In this document: positions 55,126-61,558 of the stretch, in pieces | Layout: the number at the start of each line of letters is the position of its first letter | Position numbering within the stretch: position 1 is the stretch's first letter | DNA from: Methanosarcina mazei S-6 | GTDB lineage: Archaea; Halobacteriota; Methanosarcinia; Methanosarcinales; Methanosarcinaceae | NCBI RefSeq assembly: GCF_000970205.1 | Contig: NZ_CP009512.1 | Span: 2,728,001 to 2,792,000 of the forward strand | Reading direction: 5' to 3' | Length of the DNA stretch: 64,000 nucleotides | Translations under genes and position numbers: made by a program | Notes under the pieces: generated by a model | The model's database searches: none | Told to the model about the DNA's origin: nothing | Seen by the model: the letters and a program-made list of their open reading frames with translations, nothing else

Positions 55126-55489
55126 CTTTGGATGCCTGATATATTTCTACTGATCTATTTTTCAGCCTTTTACACTAATTTAGACAATGTTTTTATAAAA
55201 AAGACCGTATTTTTATAAAAACATCTATTGAATTATTTAAAAAACGGATATTTAATTTAGGATTTGTTTGTTAGAAATTATTAGATTTAAGCAAGAAATC
55301 AATTATCATTTTATTAAGATTAATAGGTAAATTTTGTGAAAAGACTTTTCTCTAATTGTTAGTTATTGTAATATTTTTTTTCTTAGTTTTATTATATAGG
55401 ATCGTATCTCTTTAGCTGTAAAAATGAATATTAACAAATTGATGTTTACCGTTTAATAATTATCATTCTTATTTATTTTTTTATTATAT

Positions 55490-55545
55490 TTTTGATTAAA
55501 AATACAGTTCTACCAACTAGTTTGATGATCTGGCCATAAATCATC
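55490..55545 (+). other. Copy A of a diverged hairpin element (loop TGGCCATAAAT)
   Basis: In the 647-bp AT-rich gap after the fpo operon, GATGAT (55524-55529) pairs with ATCATC (55540-55545) around CTGGCCATAA. A similar 56-base stretch without net length change lies at 60159-60214. Weaker similarity extends about 60 bp to the left of each copy (TTTACC and TTTAATAATTAT-like segments). It lies 190 bp before the protease pseudogene. Confidence 0.55.
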
Positions 55546-55650
55546 TATAACAAAAAGTCATACAGTTATGTGAAAAAAAGTAAATTTTTTCTTACTATAT
55601 GAGAGCCCCGGGAAATTGAAGGCTTCTTGCAGGACTCCCATACAGGCGCC

Positions 55651-55708
55651 CGAAGGCAAAGCATGTTTTTGTATCTTAAGATATTAAAATCTACGTGTTT
55701 TGCCTTCG
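55651..55708 (+). promoter_or_regulatory. 15-bp inverted repeat in the leader of the protease gene
   Basis: CGAAGGCAAAGCATG and CGTGTTTTGCCTTCG pair over 15 bp with two G-U pairs. Inside is the palindrome TATCTTAAGATA. The structure ends 27 bp before the start codon and just before the AGAAGGTGA ribosome site, so it may act on transcription or translation of the next gene, or be the terminator of something upstream. Confidence 0.5.
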
Positions 55709-55735
55709 AGAACAATGTAAAGAAGGTGAAACCAA

Positions 55736-57010
55736 ATGAAAATAAGATTAAAAGGAACTAATCTGCTACCTGTAGCCCTGTTTTTACTGATTATGTTAGC
55801 TGTACCTGTATTAGGTGCGCAGGAAGAGACATTGAATGAGACTAAATACGCTGACACATCAGGTGTGATCAGCGTGGATAAAGCTGAAGAAGTTGCGGCT
55901 TACTCTATAAAAGAGATTTCTGGATCTATATCAGATTTATCTGAATGGAAAGACGCAACTGTGGAACTATCTACTATTTACTACGATTTTGATGGTAATA
56001 GGTCGGCTTATTCATTTAACGTTATGAAAAATAAGCAACAAGCAGGATATATTTTCATTTCAGCGACGAAGGATAACTATCCAGTTCTGGAGTTTTCAAA
56101 AGGCAAAATACCTAATGAAATACCAGAATTGACGATTCGTTCAAAATCACTGGCAAAAGAGCGTGCTGATAAGGAAGATCTGACTGTTGGAGAGATGAAA
56201 CCTCTTTATTTAGGCCCAACATTTTACTACGCAGAGTATACACTAACCGATACAAAAGGTAAAGCCAAAGAAAAAGTAATAGTGGATTTGCCATTTTCAA
56301 CTGTAGTAGACTTCAATAAGTCAAATGTTAGTGTTCCTGAAGATAAGAAAGACTACTATTTTAATGATACATCTTTACAACAGCAACGAGAAATAAGGAA
56401 GCAAGACGCAAATGCAAAATGGAAGTCCATAGAGGAAAGAATGACTATGGAAACAATTCCTGCAGGCTATACATCTACTAGAAGTATCGGCTATATTTAC
56501 GATGTACCTAATTATCCCTAGCGCAATGGCTGCTCTCCAACTGCAGCTGGAATGATACTAGGGCATTGAGACAGTAATGGATATCCTAACTTTCCAGGAG
56601 AAACTACACTGATAGATGAATTAGCGAACGCAATGGGCACATCATATAAATGGCCATTTGGAGATGGAGCGACTTGGCCATGGAATATTGGACCTGGCAT
56701 AGAGACGGTTTGTAATAATCATGGATACAGTAATTTTGATGCAAGCTATGTTTGGTACTCAATCCCATGGAACGATGTAAAAAATGAAGTGAATGCCAAT
56801 AGACCATTTGTTATTTGTATGTTATATGGTGGATTAGGTAGCGGGTACCAGCCAGGTCAAGAATATGGAAACCATTGTGTAACCTGTATTGGATATTCCG
56901 ATGGTAGTCAGGATTATGTATTCTTACACGATACATGGGATACCGAAAATCATCATTACATAGCTTTTGGCAGTTGGTGGGAAGCTACGGCAATATGGGT
57001 GAGACCTTAA
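55736..57010 (+). pseudogene. Exported papain-like (C39-type) cysteine protease, two nonsense codons
   Basis: One frame of 425 codons runs from ATG 55736 (AGAAGGTGA ribosome site) to 57010, interrupted only by TAG at 56519 and TGA at 56567. Part 1 has a signal peptide (about residues 10-27, ending VLGAQEE) and a pro-region. The catalytic part then reads VPNYP-stop-RNGCSPTAAGMILGH-stop-DSNGYPNF, with Cys in NGCSPTAA, His in GNHCVTCIGYSDG and Asp in LHDTWD. The TAG falls where papain-like enzymes have the oxyanion Gln (CAG to TAG) and the TGA where Trp is likely (TGG to TGA). TAG can be read as pyrrolysine in Methanosarcina, but the TGA would still stop synthesis before the His. Most likely a young pseudogene. 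Confidence 0.8.
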
Positions 57011-57033
57011 CCACCCCATATATTTTTATTTAA

Positions 57034-57150
57034 TAGGACTTACGCACTTGAGGATTAAAATCAGCATCAATAGACCTTGCTGTCAAACCATTGATTTAGA
57101 CAGTTGAAGGTTTAGAGTTGTTGTTTTTAAGTTCAACCGCGTAAGTCCTA
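57034..57150. mobile_element. 117-bp MITE with 18-bp inverted repeats and 5-bp target duplication
   Basis: The ends TAGGACTTACGCACTTGA and (reverse complement of the right end) TAGGACTTACGCGGTTGA match at 16 of 18 positions. TTTAA flanks both sides (57029-57033 and 57151-57155). The interior is 81 bp and cannot encode a transposase, so it must be moved by an enzyme from elsewhere. It sits 24 bp after the protease pseudogene. Confidence 0.8.
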
Positions 57151-57463
57151 TTTAATTTAGAACAGGCAAATTTTTCTCAATTGCAGAGCCCTATTATATG
57201 GGTAATGAAGAAGGAAAAGTTGATGGCTTAAACAAGGGGAATAAAAAAGAAAAAGGCACTCGTTATTTCCATGGTTTTTAATAAAGCTTCAGTTTCTAAA
57301 AAAGATGTTCGATTGATTATTTTTGGATATGGTATTCAGAGAAACAACTTTGGATTTTGAGATGAGTTCTCTTTTCCAATTGTATTTTTCGGCCACTACA
57401 TGAGATAAAAATTAAAGAGCAGAAAGCGGAGTTCAGTAATAGAAATACAGGTGTTATAATAAA

Positions 57464-57593
57464 GAGCTTATCCTAAAACTCAAAATCGGCTCTCCGAATC
57501 TTGAATCTGAAATAGTCAATCGAGTCACAGATAATGAAAACAATTCTGAAATTTTGACCGATGAAGGGATAAAATATGTTTTGGGATGAGCTC
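57464..57593. repeat. 130-bp segment bounded by 16-bp inverted repeats
   Basis: GAGCTTATCCTAAAAC at the left and the reverse complement of the right end GAGCTCATCCCAAAAC match at 14 of 16 positions. No clear target duplication is seen. The interior reads as about 40 stop-free codons (for example IGSPNLESEIVNRVTDNENN) ending in the right repeat, so it may be a remnant of an insertion sequence or a gene end. The rest of the 57151-57636 gap shows no gene. Confidence 0.5.
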
Positions 57594-57636
57594 AAATATA
57601 AACATACCAATAATGAACCACCGAGAAGGTGACATA

Positions 57637-59934
57637 TTGAAAATTAAAACCTATTCCATTATCGCATTTTCGTTTCTGTTAATATATGCAAACACTGTTG
57701 CGGCGGATACGATTACTGTTGATAACAATGGAAATGAAAATTATACCTCTATACAGCAAGCTGTAAACAACTCTGTCGATGGAGACACAATAATTGTTAA
57801 TAAAGGAACATATATTGAAAACATAGACATAGATAAGAAGTTAGCAATAATCTCAAAGTCGGGAAATCCGGAAGATACAATAATTCAAGCTCTTCATCCA
57901 TATGATCATATTTTCCATGTAACTGCGAATAACGTGACCATCAAAGGGTTTGGTTTGAAAAATTCCAGCTCAGGAAGTGGAATTTATCTGGACAGTGTGC
58001 AATATAACACTGTTGCAAACAACCATTTACAGGCTAATGGGATAGGAATCTATCTCTGGGGTGCTGCTAAAAACAATATACTAATTAATAACACAGCATC
58101 AGACAATAGCTGGTCAGGAATCCGATTGTCTCCAGATGACAGTGAGCTTGCAAGCAACAATACACTTATTAATAACACAATGGTCAACAATAAATATAAT
58201 TTTGAGATTTATACTGGGTATGAAAATGCTAGTATGCAGAACAATATCGATACTACCAATACTGTAAATGGAAAACCTATTTATTATCTTGTAAATGTTT
58301 CGAATATTACTTTAAATTCTGCCTCAAATGCTGGGGCTATTTACTGTATCAACTGCCAGAACATGTCAATAAAAGATCAGGTTCTCCAAAATAACTCCCA
58401 GAGCATTGCTTTATTTAATACAAGCGATTCAAGGTTTGATAGCAACATCCTATCAAATAACGCCGTTGGAATCATTCTGTTTAACTCAGATAATAACACC
58501 GTGTTGAATAATATTGTAGTTAATAATATTATTGGCATTGGAATAGTTAAATCCACTGATAATTATTTAAGTAACAACGTGGCAAATTCTAATATCGTTG
58601 GATTTGATGTTCATGAATCAACAAATACTGAATTAAATAACAACACAGCAAATTTTAATAAAGATAACGGCATAACTTTGAGTTCTTCTATACAAAATAA
58701 AGTAAATGGAAATATTGCAAATCACAATGGTGGTGGAATTAAATTATTCAATTGCAGTAATAGCTTGCTAAACAATAATATTGCAAATTCAAATAGGTAT
58801 GCAGGTATTGATCTAGGGAGCTCAAGAGACAACATTCTAACTGATAATATTGCAAATTCAAACAGGGAACATGGCTTTGAACTTGCTGGCTCAGATAACA
58901 ATACTTTGAGAGGTAATATTGAGAATTCAGATATGGATCATTTACCAGATGATTCTCCTAATCGTACTTCTAAGAATGAGACTAAAGATCAGGATATAGA
59001 AAATAAATCTTTCATTGATTCTACAATTTCTGCAATTTTATCCTGGATATATCCCAATAATTCTCCTGATAATGATAGTAATAATTCGATAAATAATTTT
59101 CTTGATAATATCAGTGATGATTCAATAAATGTCTACGTACACCCTGGAGACTCGATCCAGCAAGCAATAGACAATTCAAGTTCTGGCGATATTATTGCTG
59201 TTCACCCGGGATTATATAAGGAGAACCTTGTTGTGGACGAATCTCTTATTATAATTTCAAAGCCTAGAGAACAGACTGAAACTATAATTCAGGCTGCAGA
59301 TCCGGAAAAGGATATTTTCCATGTAGTTGCCGACAATGTGACAATTAGCGGGTTCAATGTGACAGGAACAGACAAGTCAGGCATATGTTATACCGGGTCT
59401 GGTGGCATTATCGCTGGCAATAAACTGCTTTCTGACAGATACGGAATTTATCTGAAAAAAGCCGAAAACATTACAATTGAAAACAACAATGCATCTCAAA
59501 ATGGATGTGGAATTTGCTTGACAGACTCCAGCAGAAATAAACTGGTAAATAATGAAGTAAGTTATAATTGGTTCAAGTGGGGAAAGTATAGAAACGGGAT
59601 CCTTCTTAAAAATTCAAATAACAACAAGCTAACAAGTAATAATGTATCGAGAAACTGGGATGGTATACGCCTCGAAAATTCTTCAAACAATGAACTGAGC
59701 AAAAATGCAGTTATAGATGACTATTTCTGTATTAGTCTTAGAGATTCAAATAATAATAAACTTCTTGACAATAACGTCAAATCAATCGGGTACTCATTTG
59801 AAATCACGCTGGGGAAATCTCATAATAATACTTTGCGAGGTAACAGTGCAGGCTTTATGACTGAAGTTAAAGTATCGTCTGGTCCTGAGAGTACAAACAA
59901 TACACTCGAAGGAAAGCAACATATTAGAAGATAA
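57637..59934 (+). CDS. Exported surface protein with two NosD-like beta-helix domains
   Basis: The 765-aa protein has a signal peptide (KTYSIIAFSFLLIYANTVAA) and two right-handed parallel beta-helix regions. Each opens with a SIQQAV(N/D)NS..GD.I.V..G.Y.ENI module (about residues 30 and 500), followed by many Asn-rich turns of the type NNTLINNTMVNNKYN. About 60 residues between them are acidic and low in structure. N-glycosylation sequons are abundant. There is no C-terminal anchor or PGF-type sorting motif, so it is secreted or held by contacts. TTG 57637 has GAAGGTGA upstream; the earlier in-frame start at 57586 lies in the inverted repeat and has none. Confidence 0.8.
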   Translation: MKIKTYSIIAFSFLLIYANTVAADTITVDNNGNENYTSIQQAVNNSVDGDTIIVNKGTYIENIDIDKKLAIISKSGNPEDTIIQALHPYDHIFHVTANNVTIKGFGLKNSSSGSGIYLDSVQYNTVANNHLQANGIGIYLWGAAKNNILINNTASDNSWSGIRLSPDDSELASNNTLINNTMVNNKYNFEIYTGYENASMQNNIDTTNTVNGKPIYYLVNVSNITLNSASNAGAIYCINCQNMSIKDQVLQNNSQSIALFNTSDSRFDSNILSNNAVGIILFNSDNNTVLNNIVVNNIIGIGIVKSTDNYLSNNVANSNIVGFDVHESTNTELNNNTANFNKDNGITLSSSIQNKVNGNIANHNGGGIKLFNCSNSLLNNNIANSNRYAGIDLGSSRDNILTDNIANSNREHGFELAGSDNNTLRGNIENSDMDHLPDDSPNRTSKNETKDQDIENKSFIDSTISAILSWIYPNNSPDNDSNNSINNFLDNISDDSINVYVHPGDSIQQAIDNSSSGDIIAVHPGLYKENLVVDESLIIISKPREQTETIIQAADPEKDIFHVVADNVTISGFNVTGTDKSGICYTGSGGIIAGNKLLSDRYGIYLKKAENITIENNNASQNGCGICLTDSSRNKLVNNEVSYNWFKWGKYRNGILLKNSNNNKLTSNNVSRNWDGIRLENSSNNELSKNAVIDDYFCISLRDSNNNKLLDNNVKSIGYSFEITLGKSHNNTLRGNSAGFMTEVKVSSGPESTNNTLEGKQHIRR

Positions 59935-60158
59935 AGCAGCCAATTTTTATTAGATATTACAATTGAACCGAGTTTCTGCAGGTATTTTTAAAACAGTATT
60001 TTTCACAAAATCCTCCTATCAATCATGTTATTTTTCATGTATTTTTATCTAAATTGATTATTTGAACTTCCATTATACCTTCTATAAAGCTGTTTACTGA
60101 TTTATTCCATTTTGAATAGGTTGAATATTTACCATTATTAATTATTTTTTAGCATAAT
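59935..60158. other. AT-rich spacer after the beta-helix gene
   Basis: No gene is visible. The right part shares scattered similarity with 55430-55490 (TTTACC, TTTAATAATTAT-like) and leads into copy B of the hairpin element. Confidence 0.4.
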
Positions 60159-60214
60159 TTTGGATTTAAAAGTATGGTTTCACCAAATGTGTGACTATTT
60201 GGCCATAAATAGTA
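60159..60214 (+). other. Copy B of the diverged hairpin element
   Basis: ACTATT (60194-60199) pairs with AATAGT (60208-60213) around TGGCCATA. Aligned without gaps to copy A (55490-55545), the stems occupy the same register, and two base pairs differ in both partners (T-A to C-G, G-C to T-A). It lies 171 bp before vapB. Confidence 0.55.
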
Positions 60215-60384
60215 ATTTCTTTGATTATTGTACGTATGCTCTTGTGAAATACTTCCAGTTAGAAGAATATACTCAAATTCACATTCTTTGAGAAATTTTT
60301 GATTTCTTTTCAGTGTTTATCTATCTTCACCGAGTCGAAAAAACCCGAAAAGTCTTTAATACACATACATACACAGATAGTATC

Positions 60385-60624
60385 ATGCCAACTAGAACGA
60401 TCTGCATAAGTGAGGAAGCTTATGAAAAGCTTAAAAGCCTAAAAACCACTGAAAAGAACAGCTTCTCAGATGTTATTCTCAAGTACTATCCTAAAAAAAG
60501 AAAGCTTTCGGAAGTGCTCGCAGAAATAGGCACCAACCCCGAACTCGCAGATGCAATCGAAAAAGCTTCGAGGGACATGAGAAAAGCAGAGACGAGGAAA
60601 GTTGATCTTGATGCCGGTGCTTGA
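60385..60624 (+). CDS. vapB: VapB-type antitoxin (DUF217-like)
   Basis: The 79-aa protein begins [20 protein letters not shown], a ribbon-helix-helix or AbrB-like antitoxin start seen in archaeal DUF217 antitoxins. It has a C-terminal segment ([20 protein letters not shown]) that would bind the toxin. ATG 60385 is used; the longer frame from 60313 has no support. It overlaps vapC by 14 bp. It would neutralise and autorepress with VapC. Confidence 0.78.
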
Positions 60625-61002
60625 TACTTCTTTTATTGTAGATCTCCTGAGAGGCAAAAGAGGAGCTCTTCAGAAACTGGCTGAAATGGAAGCTCAGGAA
60701 TCCCCTTAAGCAAAACCGAGATTAATGTCATTGAGCTTTATCGGGGAGCTTATCTGTCCAGAAAAACGCATCAAAACCTGGAAGAAATCAAAAAGCTTCT
60801 GGAATGCTTTCAGGTTCTGGAGCTAGAAGAATCCGTCTATAAAGTCTTTGCTTCCCTCTCTGCAAATTTACTATCAAAAGGGACATCTATTGGCGCATTC
60901 GATGAATTGATAGCTGCCATCACACTTTTTCATGGCGAGAGAATAGTTACCAGAGATAGCCACTTCAAAGAAGTTACAGGGCTTGAAGTGATAGTTTATT
61001 GA
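60611..61002 (+). pseudogene. vapC: VapC PIN-domain toxin with single-base frameshift
   Basis: VapC toxins are PIN-domain ribonucleases. The frame from ATG 60611 ([15 protein letters not shown]) stops at 60707, but the -1 frame continues from about 60697 as GIPLSKTEINVIELYRGAYL to a stop at 61002. The four PIN acids are all present: Asp in VLDTSF, Glu in VIELYRG, Asp in GAFDELIAA, Asp in VTRDSHF. Restoring one G in the AGG at 60696-60698 (CAGGA to CAGGGA) gives a full-length VapC of about 130 aa. It is either a recent inactivation or a sequencing error. Confidence 0.8.
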
Positions 61003-61060: not shown

Positions 61061-61558
61061 ATGGATTTTGAATTGCGAAAATGGGAAAAATCCGATGCTG
61101 AAAGCTTCTTCAAATATTCCAGCAATCCAAAGATTTTAGAAGATATGAGGGATGCTTTTCCCTCTACCTTAGAGGATTGCAGAAAAACCGTAGAAAACTT
61201 TAGCTATAACGATGAATCAAAGCAATGCTGTCGGGCAATTATTGTGAATGGAGAAGCTGTGGGAAGCATTGCCTTATTCATTAAAAACGATGTTTATTGT
61301 AGAAGTGCAGAAATCGCATACTGGCTTGGCGAACCTTTCTGGGGCAGGGGAATAATGAGCGAAGCAATAAAACAGCTCTGTCAGACAGCTTTTGAACAAT
61401 ATGATATTGTACGGATATTTGCAGAGCCTTATGCACATAATTTTGGTTCAAGAAAAGCCCTTGAAAAAGCTGGATTTGTTTTGGAGGGCATAATGAAGAA
61501 AGGGATTTATAAAAACGGCAATTACTTTGATTATTGTATGTATGCACTAATTAAATGA
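61061..61558 (+). CDS. GNAT-family acetyltransferase (RimJ/RimL-like)
   Basis: The 165-aa protein opens with FELRKWEKSDAESFFKYSSN and has the acetyl-CoA binding loop WLGEPFWGRGIMSEAIKQLC and the closing KALEKAGFVLEGIMKKGIYK, all typical of the RimJ/RimL group that acetylates N-termini or small molecules. The substrate cannot be told. It ends 8 bp from the hepT stop on the other strand. It has no evident operon partner. Confidence 0.85.
   Translation: MDFELRKWEKSDAESFFKYSSNPKILEDMRDAFPSTLEDCRKTVENFSYNDESKQCCRAIIVNGEAVGSIALFIKNDVYCRSAEIAYWLGEPFWGRGIMSEAIKQLCQTAFEQYDIVRIFAEPYAHNFGSRKALEKAGFVLEGIMKKGIYKNGNYFDYCMYALIK

Follow-up and report, generated by a model that had tools for sequence, protein, structure and literature searches.

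A predicted family of paired operator-promoter elements in Methanosarcina and a candidate membrane-anchored winged-helix regulator

Two similar 56-base segments, 55490-55545 (copy A) and 60159-60214 (copy B), lie in a 64,000-nucleotide stretch of the Methanosarcina mazei S-6 genome (NZ_CP009512.1, positions 2,728,001 to 2,792,000; hereafter the window), and were originally predicted to be hairpin elements under selection for a folded RNA or a two-fold DNA site. Judged from their sequence, they are instead two members of a DNA operator-promoter family, for which protein binding and an effect on transcription are predicted. This family is probably read by a transmembrane winged helix-turn-helix protein (TM-wHTH), copy A being an intact single-arm site and copy B an orphaned duplicate.

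An alignment of 154 distinct sites gives the consensus WYA-GTTTGATGATYTGGCCADAAA-NNATATATA, in which the 21-bp element GTTTGATGATYTGGCCADAAA directly adjoins a TATA box at a fixed distance. When the pattern GTTTGATGATYTGGCCATAAA is searched with ≤3 mismatches, sites are found in 24 of 31 Methanosarcina genomes, up to 22 per genome, and the ~200 matches in these 31 genomes compare with a single match for a reversed control pattern; order-wide, 49 of 186 genomes match at ≤2 mismatches, versus 2 control matches. The element count in the present genome is ∼20–30. Copy A is an exact match to the genus-wide pattern (E = 6.5e-9 for model R1 in the whole genome), and a search of the 31 genomes with it returned orthologous promoter regions, plus many short matches to 55518-55549; its orthologues in other genomes retain both motif and TATA box. 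The extended motif is needed because the 11-bp core common to the two segments, TGGCCATAAAT, is not enriched on its own: with one mismatch allowed, it has 72 matches genome-wide versus 76 for the reversed control, and its 2 occurrences in the window (1.7 expected) are not above chance. In a scan of 84,980 species genomes, matches fall chiefly in Methanosarcina and related archaea. Of the matches outside Methanosarcina, L129 and L131/L139 have promoter and gene sequences resembling those of that genus and probably represent mis-binned contigs; those in Sphingobacterium, Comamonas, Myxococcales and Bacteroidales fit chance (by our estimate, ∼3 are expected).

The register of the TATA box is seen in the flank, outside the pattern used for selection, where T/A/T/A/T at +24 to +28 is present in 64–85% of the 154 sites; of 95 core sites, 76 have a TATA-like hexamer behind them, compared with 17 and 8 in control windows. 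The element is intergenic and upstream of genes, with very few sites inside open reading frames (ORFs) and most having an ORF behind one or the other arm. In archaeal core promoters, the transcription factor B (TFB) recognition element (BRE) lies where the ADAAA end of the element meets the TATA box.

The usual layout is two inverted copies on opposite strands with their TATA boxes pointing outward (i.e., a bidirectional promoter). An opposite-strand upstream partner is detected by weight matrix (score ≥8) at 102 of 145 sites (∼70%), with 0 of 145 in the same-strand control and a top partner score of 1.4 among shuffled upstream regions (n = 300). In the weaker partner the sequence is ATWGTTWGAGAnnnTGGaCAGAAAaCTTATAAGGA, and a TATA box is again present. 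Among 80 non-redundant pairs, the favoured copy-to-copy distances in Methanosarcina are 53–54 and 63–64 bp; in other genera they are 13, 24 and 30 bp (83 bp also occurs there). With the exception of 30 bp, the spacings are separated by integral numbers of helical turns (mean resultant of 0.78 at a period of 10.3, for pairs that are not fully independent). Discrete spacings one helical turn apart suggest a protein bound to one face of the helix, which points to cooperative binding to paired operators. The two-fold symmetry suspected originally thus exists, but between two whole opposite-strand sites 53 or 63 bp apart and not within 56 bp; likewise, the proposal of a leader or regulatory element in Methanosarcina accessory regions was right in kind as far as a regulatory DNA site is concerned, and wrong as to a folded RNA.

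The resemblance between the two segments that gave rise to the RNA proposal is real. Their ungapped alignment over 55451-55545 / 60120-60214 has 63 identical positions of 95; the core occurs exactly twice in the window (55531-55541 and 60200-60210); similarity extends leftward at 75% identity across 52 bp; and both copies are on the plus strand, ∼190 bp (A) and 171 bp (B) from coding starts. In a comparison across species, the copy B region matches the copy A locus in a second species (E = 2.6e-9), which bears out the homology of the two copies. Each window copy can also form a 5–6 bp stem in the same register (arms GATGAT/ATCATC in A and ACTAT/ATAGT in B), but the minimum-energy folds of both 56-mers differ from the claimed hairpin, and their stability relative to shuffled sequences shows no excess (z = +0.33 and −0.10). 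At least 5 of the 6 pairs are possible at 50 of 145 sites when G-U is counted, because the AT-rich TATA box stands opposite GATGAT. Across 64 diverse sites, 60.7% of cells in the claimed stem are paired versus 60.3 ± 0.5% in shuffled columns, RNAalifold predicts no consensus base pair, and an Rfam scan of the window at gathering thresholds found only a tRNA, with no RNA family match at the segments. The two pairs taken as compensatory do not represent covariation, because the 3′ arm of copy B is homologous to the 3′ ends of GNAT acetyltransferase genes, so that the 3′ arms of A and B differ in origin. The orthologue of copy B in another genome (G007, locus L065; 91% identical over 161 bp) reads GAATATTTGGCCAAGGCGGTA and is unable to pair. 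Moreover, because the element is located upstream of the TATA box, its own promoter would not transcribe it. A conserved RNA hairpin, whether leader or small RNA, maintained by compensatory changes is therefore extremely improbable: homologues conserve the primary sequence without the pairing, which by the original prediction's own criterion refutes a folded RNA. The hairpin and the "compensatory" changes are a coincidence, and a warning that two-sequence "covariation" can appear by chance where a motif adjoins an AT-rich TATA box.

A candidate for the protein that reads the sites comes from the operator pair at 413919/414001 in this genome (G000), which separates a secreted-protein gene from a divergent operon encoding a small extracytoplasmic protein and a 242-aa TM-wHTH protein. 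The latter has a signal-like N-terminus, one transmembrane segment (read from sequence), a basic stretch and two HTH_24 domains (its cytoplasmic part would span residues ∼90–242), and thus combines in a single chain the transmembrane segment and DNA-binding wHTH that mark a membrane-bound one-component regulator. The same divergent arrangement is present in distant relatives (L246-L251), paired sites stand directly upstream of the operon in several genera, and, of the 30 best TM-wHTH loci, 28 have sites (model R1, E ≤ 0.05), the proteins being 36–100% identical. The second wHTH stretch, ITNQE..LDKSTxHWHI, is strongly conserved across orthologues. Outside the genus, sites occur in 25 of 30 genomes with a close TM-wHTH versus 12 of 125 without (statistics that ignore relatedness); within it, an association with TM-wHTH paralogues of any kind persists in weaker form (23/2/1/5, p = 7e-4). 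From this genomic linkage we infer that TM-wHTH is the best candidate regulator, and that GTTTGATGATYTGGCC is its candidate recognition sequence at the paired promoter and at copy A.

Several observations weigh against this assignment or against parts of the picture on which it is built. The main gap is that ∼10 Methanosarcina genomes have sites and only distant TM-wHTH paralogues (25–30% identity) or fragments; G001, with 19 sites, is among the genomes without a close TM-wHTH, and another regulator or a paralogue must act in such genomes. The TM-wHTH operon might itself be a conserved target and not the source of the binder. An AlphaFold model of TM-wHTH from a 2-sequence alignment was of low confidence (mean pLDDT 56) and was not used for a fold search. 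The 30-bp spacing, seen in 3 pair clusters, does not fit the helical phasing, and weight-matrix scoring found no recognizable partner for copies A and B or their orthologues, which for copy A and its orthologues speaks against the paired arrangement. Finally, the sites were picked by similarity, so that their flanks in part reflect common descent.

These points leave some room for a true operator-promoter read by something else (i.e., an ArsR-like HTH protein, a TM-wHTH paralogue or an unknown factor) with the TM-wHTH operon only a conserved target. Besides the genomes that have sites and no close TM-wHTH, an ArsR-like gene stands directly behind sites in several genomes. In G000, which has >20 sites, the ArsR-like HTH gene at G000:C1:132957-133301, behind the intact site G000:132793, is, however, decayed, with 7 stops. 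The broader ArsR-like family is represented in 28 of the 31 genomes, four of which have no sites (G006, G011, G018 and G029), so that it does not discriminate. TM-wHTH, moreover, is linked to paired sites in genera with few other sites. We regard a different reader as rather unlikely overall, and the ArsR-like protein as sole regulator is judged less likely, given its decay in G000 and the non-discriminating distribution of its family. Intact orthologues of the decayed G000 gene exist in other genomes.

The genes behind the sites suggest what such a regulator would control. At 82 of 102 pairs, an ORF with a signal- or transmembrane-like N-terminus by a crude hydrophobicity rule is found on at least one arm; the comparison figure, counted differently with the same kind of crude rule, is 12 of 47 window ORFs. 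Peptidases of the C39 and M12-like types, NosD-like beta-helix proteins, UPF0228 and an ArsR-like HTH protein are among the targets, as are, judging from sequence, an apparent M28-type peptidase and lipoproteins. The paired sites thus appear to drive mostly secreted or surface proteins. UPF0228 (Pfam PF05727) is a family of unknown function that stands behind some sites; it is a target gene family and not the element itself. At six loci in three genomes (L110, L111, L123, L124, L134 and L143), a ∼100-aa C-terminal HdrB-like fragment forms a mini-ORF behind the outward arm, the copies being highly identical to each other.

A subgroup of sites has TTATTTATTTG after the motif (L138, L170, L171, L172, L176, L181, L184, L185, L188, L089, L146 and L101); its members have ∼180 bp of flank in common and mostly no obvious gene behind the strong arm, and might drive a non-coding RNA. 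The longer conserved flanks of this subgroup, together with the dispersed, multi-copy distribution of the sites and the existence of arrays of duplicated units, are what might be expected of remnants of a mobile element (a miniature inverted-repeat transposable element or an insertion sequence end) scattered through the genomes. Conservation is, however, limited to ∼35 bp per arm in a fixed TATA register, sites are retained upstream of orthologous operons in different genera, and spacings of 53 or 63 bp recur among pairs <85% identical. On these grounds a mobile-element origin is judged very unlikely. Conserved outer ends or target duplications were not seen in the aligned flanks, where no systematic search for them was made.

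The features of the two window loci and of the TM-wHTH operator pair are collected in Table 1. Flank 55451-55519 is best read as the remains of a duplicated promoter region. Behind copy A, the C39-peptidase-like gene is broken by an in-frame TAG (56519-56521) and a TGA (∼56568) and is likely a pseudogene; in other genomes, the copy A site precedes a NosD-like gene or a gene for an MFYK-type or different small membrane protein. The transcribed region downstream of promoter A contains a better RNA candidate than the claimed hairpin: in 6 orthologous regions, the stem at 55595-55645 has 91% of cells paired versus 30–56% in slid registers, with 3 two-sided pair changes, modest evidence for a possible conserved leader RNA stem. 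Just before the C39-like gene there is a strong inverted repeat, CGAAGGCAAAGCATG...CTACGTGTTTTGCCTTCG (55652-55710; z = −3.3 for a 141-nt fold), and a 33-bp inverted repeat, ATTTAATAGGACTTACGCACTTG..., possibly insertion sequence ends, is located at 57028-57156.

Table 1. Coordinates of the features discussed (window positions unless noted)
Feature	Position	Strand	Remarks
Upstream flank	55451..55519	+	homologous to 60120-60188
Copy A, intact promoter element (predicted)	55517..55550	+	motif 55520-55540 GTTTGATGATCTGGCCATAAA; TATA-like CATCTATAA 55542-55550
Leader stem candidate, downstream of promoter A	55595..55645	+	17 pairs
Secreted C39-peptidase-like gene behind copy A	55736..57010	+	Peptidase_C39_2 in second half
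NosD-like right-handed beta-helix surface protein	57586..59934	+	
Copy B, decayed promoter element (predicted)	60186..60211	+	motif 60189-60209, 3 mismatches, TATA lost
GNAT acetyltransferase gene 3′ end joined to copy B	60207..60251	+	supplies right arm of "hairpin B"
Antitoxin-like ORF after copy B	60385..60624	+	TATA-like TCTTTAATA ∼25–35 bp before start
Operator pair before TM-wHTH operon	413919/414001, this genome (G000)	−/+	secreted-protein gene on one side, TM-wHTH operon divergent

Copy B is a much weaker match to the element (model R1 E = 0.0075; weight-matrix score 10.5 versus 37.7 for copy A). On its left side it shares homology with the locus of copy A, and the adjoining 60207-60251 is 91–93% identical to the 3′ ends of GNAT genes in other genomes (query 98-142) and similar to 61513-61557 in the window's own GNAT gene. 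Copy B is thus probably a duplicate that was orphaned when a deletion or rearrangement joined it to the end of a GNAT gene. Its place upstream of the antitoxin-like gene, on the same strand, might suggest a working leader or operator of that gene, but the motif is decayed and without its TATA box, the G007 orthologue is still more decayed (score −3.1), and the antitoxin-like gene, which copy B probably does not control, appears to have a TATA-like box of its own beside the start; such a role for copy B is accordingly highly doubtful. The VapC-like toxin ORF that follows (60614-60720) seems to be cut short or frameshifted not far into its reading frame.

If TM-wHTH does read the family, the membrane-anchored protein would sense an extracellular cue, and its dimers or higher oligomers would bind both operators cooperatively on one face of the helix, controlling from both promoters its own operon and a regulon of secreted proteins. 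Given that the operator borders on the BRE or overlaps it, TM-wHTH might act by changing the recruitment of TFB and the TATA-binding protein, more likely as an activator than as a repressor. As a tentative extension, one can envisage an order-wide regulon, shared by methanogens and their archaeal relatives, in which a double winged-helix protein anchored in the membrane and encoded with a secreted partner acts on two inverted operators whole turns apart, forming a bidirectional promoter that would switch the secreted repertoire in response to an outside signal, with spacing classes evolving by whole turns. The helical-turn spacing allows cooperative binding at bidirectional promoters of archaea to be tested sharply, and for the genetically tractable Methanosarcina there is now a defined DNA sequence to work with, along with a candidate regulator and listed targets, many of them of unknown function.

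A literature search with motif strings and phrases gave no description of the motif among the matches listed, subscription journals being mostly outside its coverage, and we judge both the regulon and its operator architecture to be new, though of a kind known in general terms. Known archaeal regulons for secreted or surface proteins are few, and work on membrane-bound one-component regulators has centred on Sulfolobus. TM-wHTH matches both HTH_24 and HTH_HVO_0163_N (Pfam PF13412 and PF24266) above cut-off; these are generic DNA-binding domains, and the match gives neither function nor operator. By description rather than by sequence, TM-wHTH can be likened to ArnR and ArnR1 of Sulfolobus acidocaldarius, membrane-bound one-component regulators of surface-structure genes that bind promoters (PMC6396743); for TM-wHTH, the predicted tie to such promoters comes from genomic linkage and co-occurrence. 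ArnR and ArnR1 are, in contrast, crenarchaeal, with an archaellum and pili regulon, and paired, helically phased operators are not described in the portion of that source drawn on here; TM-wHTH has two wHTH domains after one transmembrane helix. EarA of Methanococcus and Pyrococcus is described as a wHTH factor of euryarchaea whose binding site adjoins the promoter on its upstream side and which presumably recruits TFB where the BRE is weak (PMC13286277); it is archaellum-specific, and its likeness to TM-wHTH is again one of description, not sequence.

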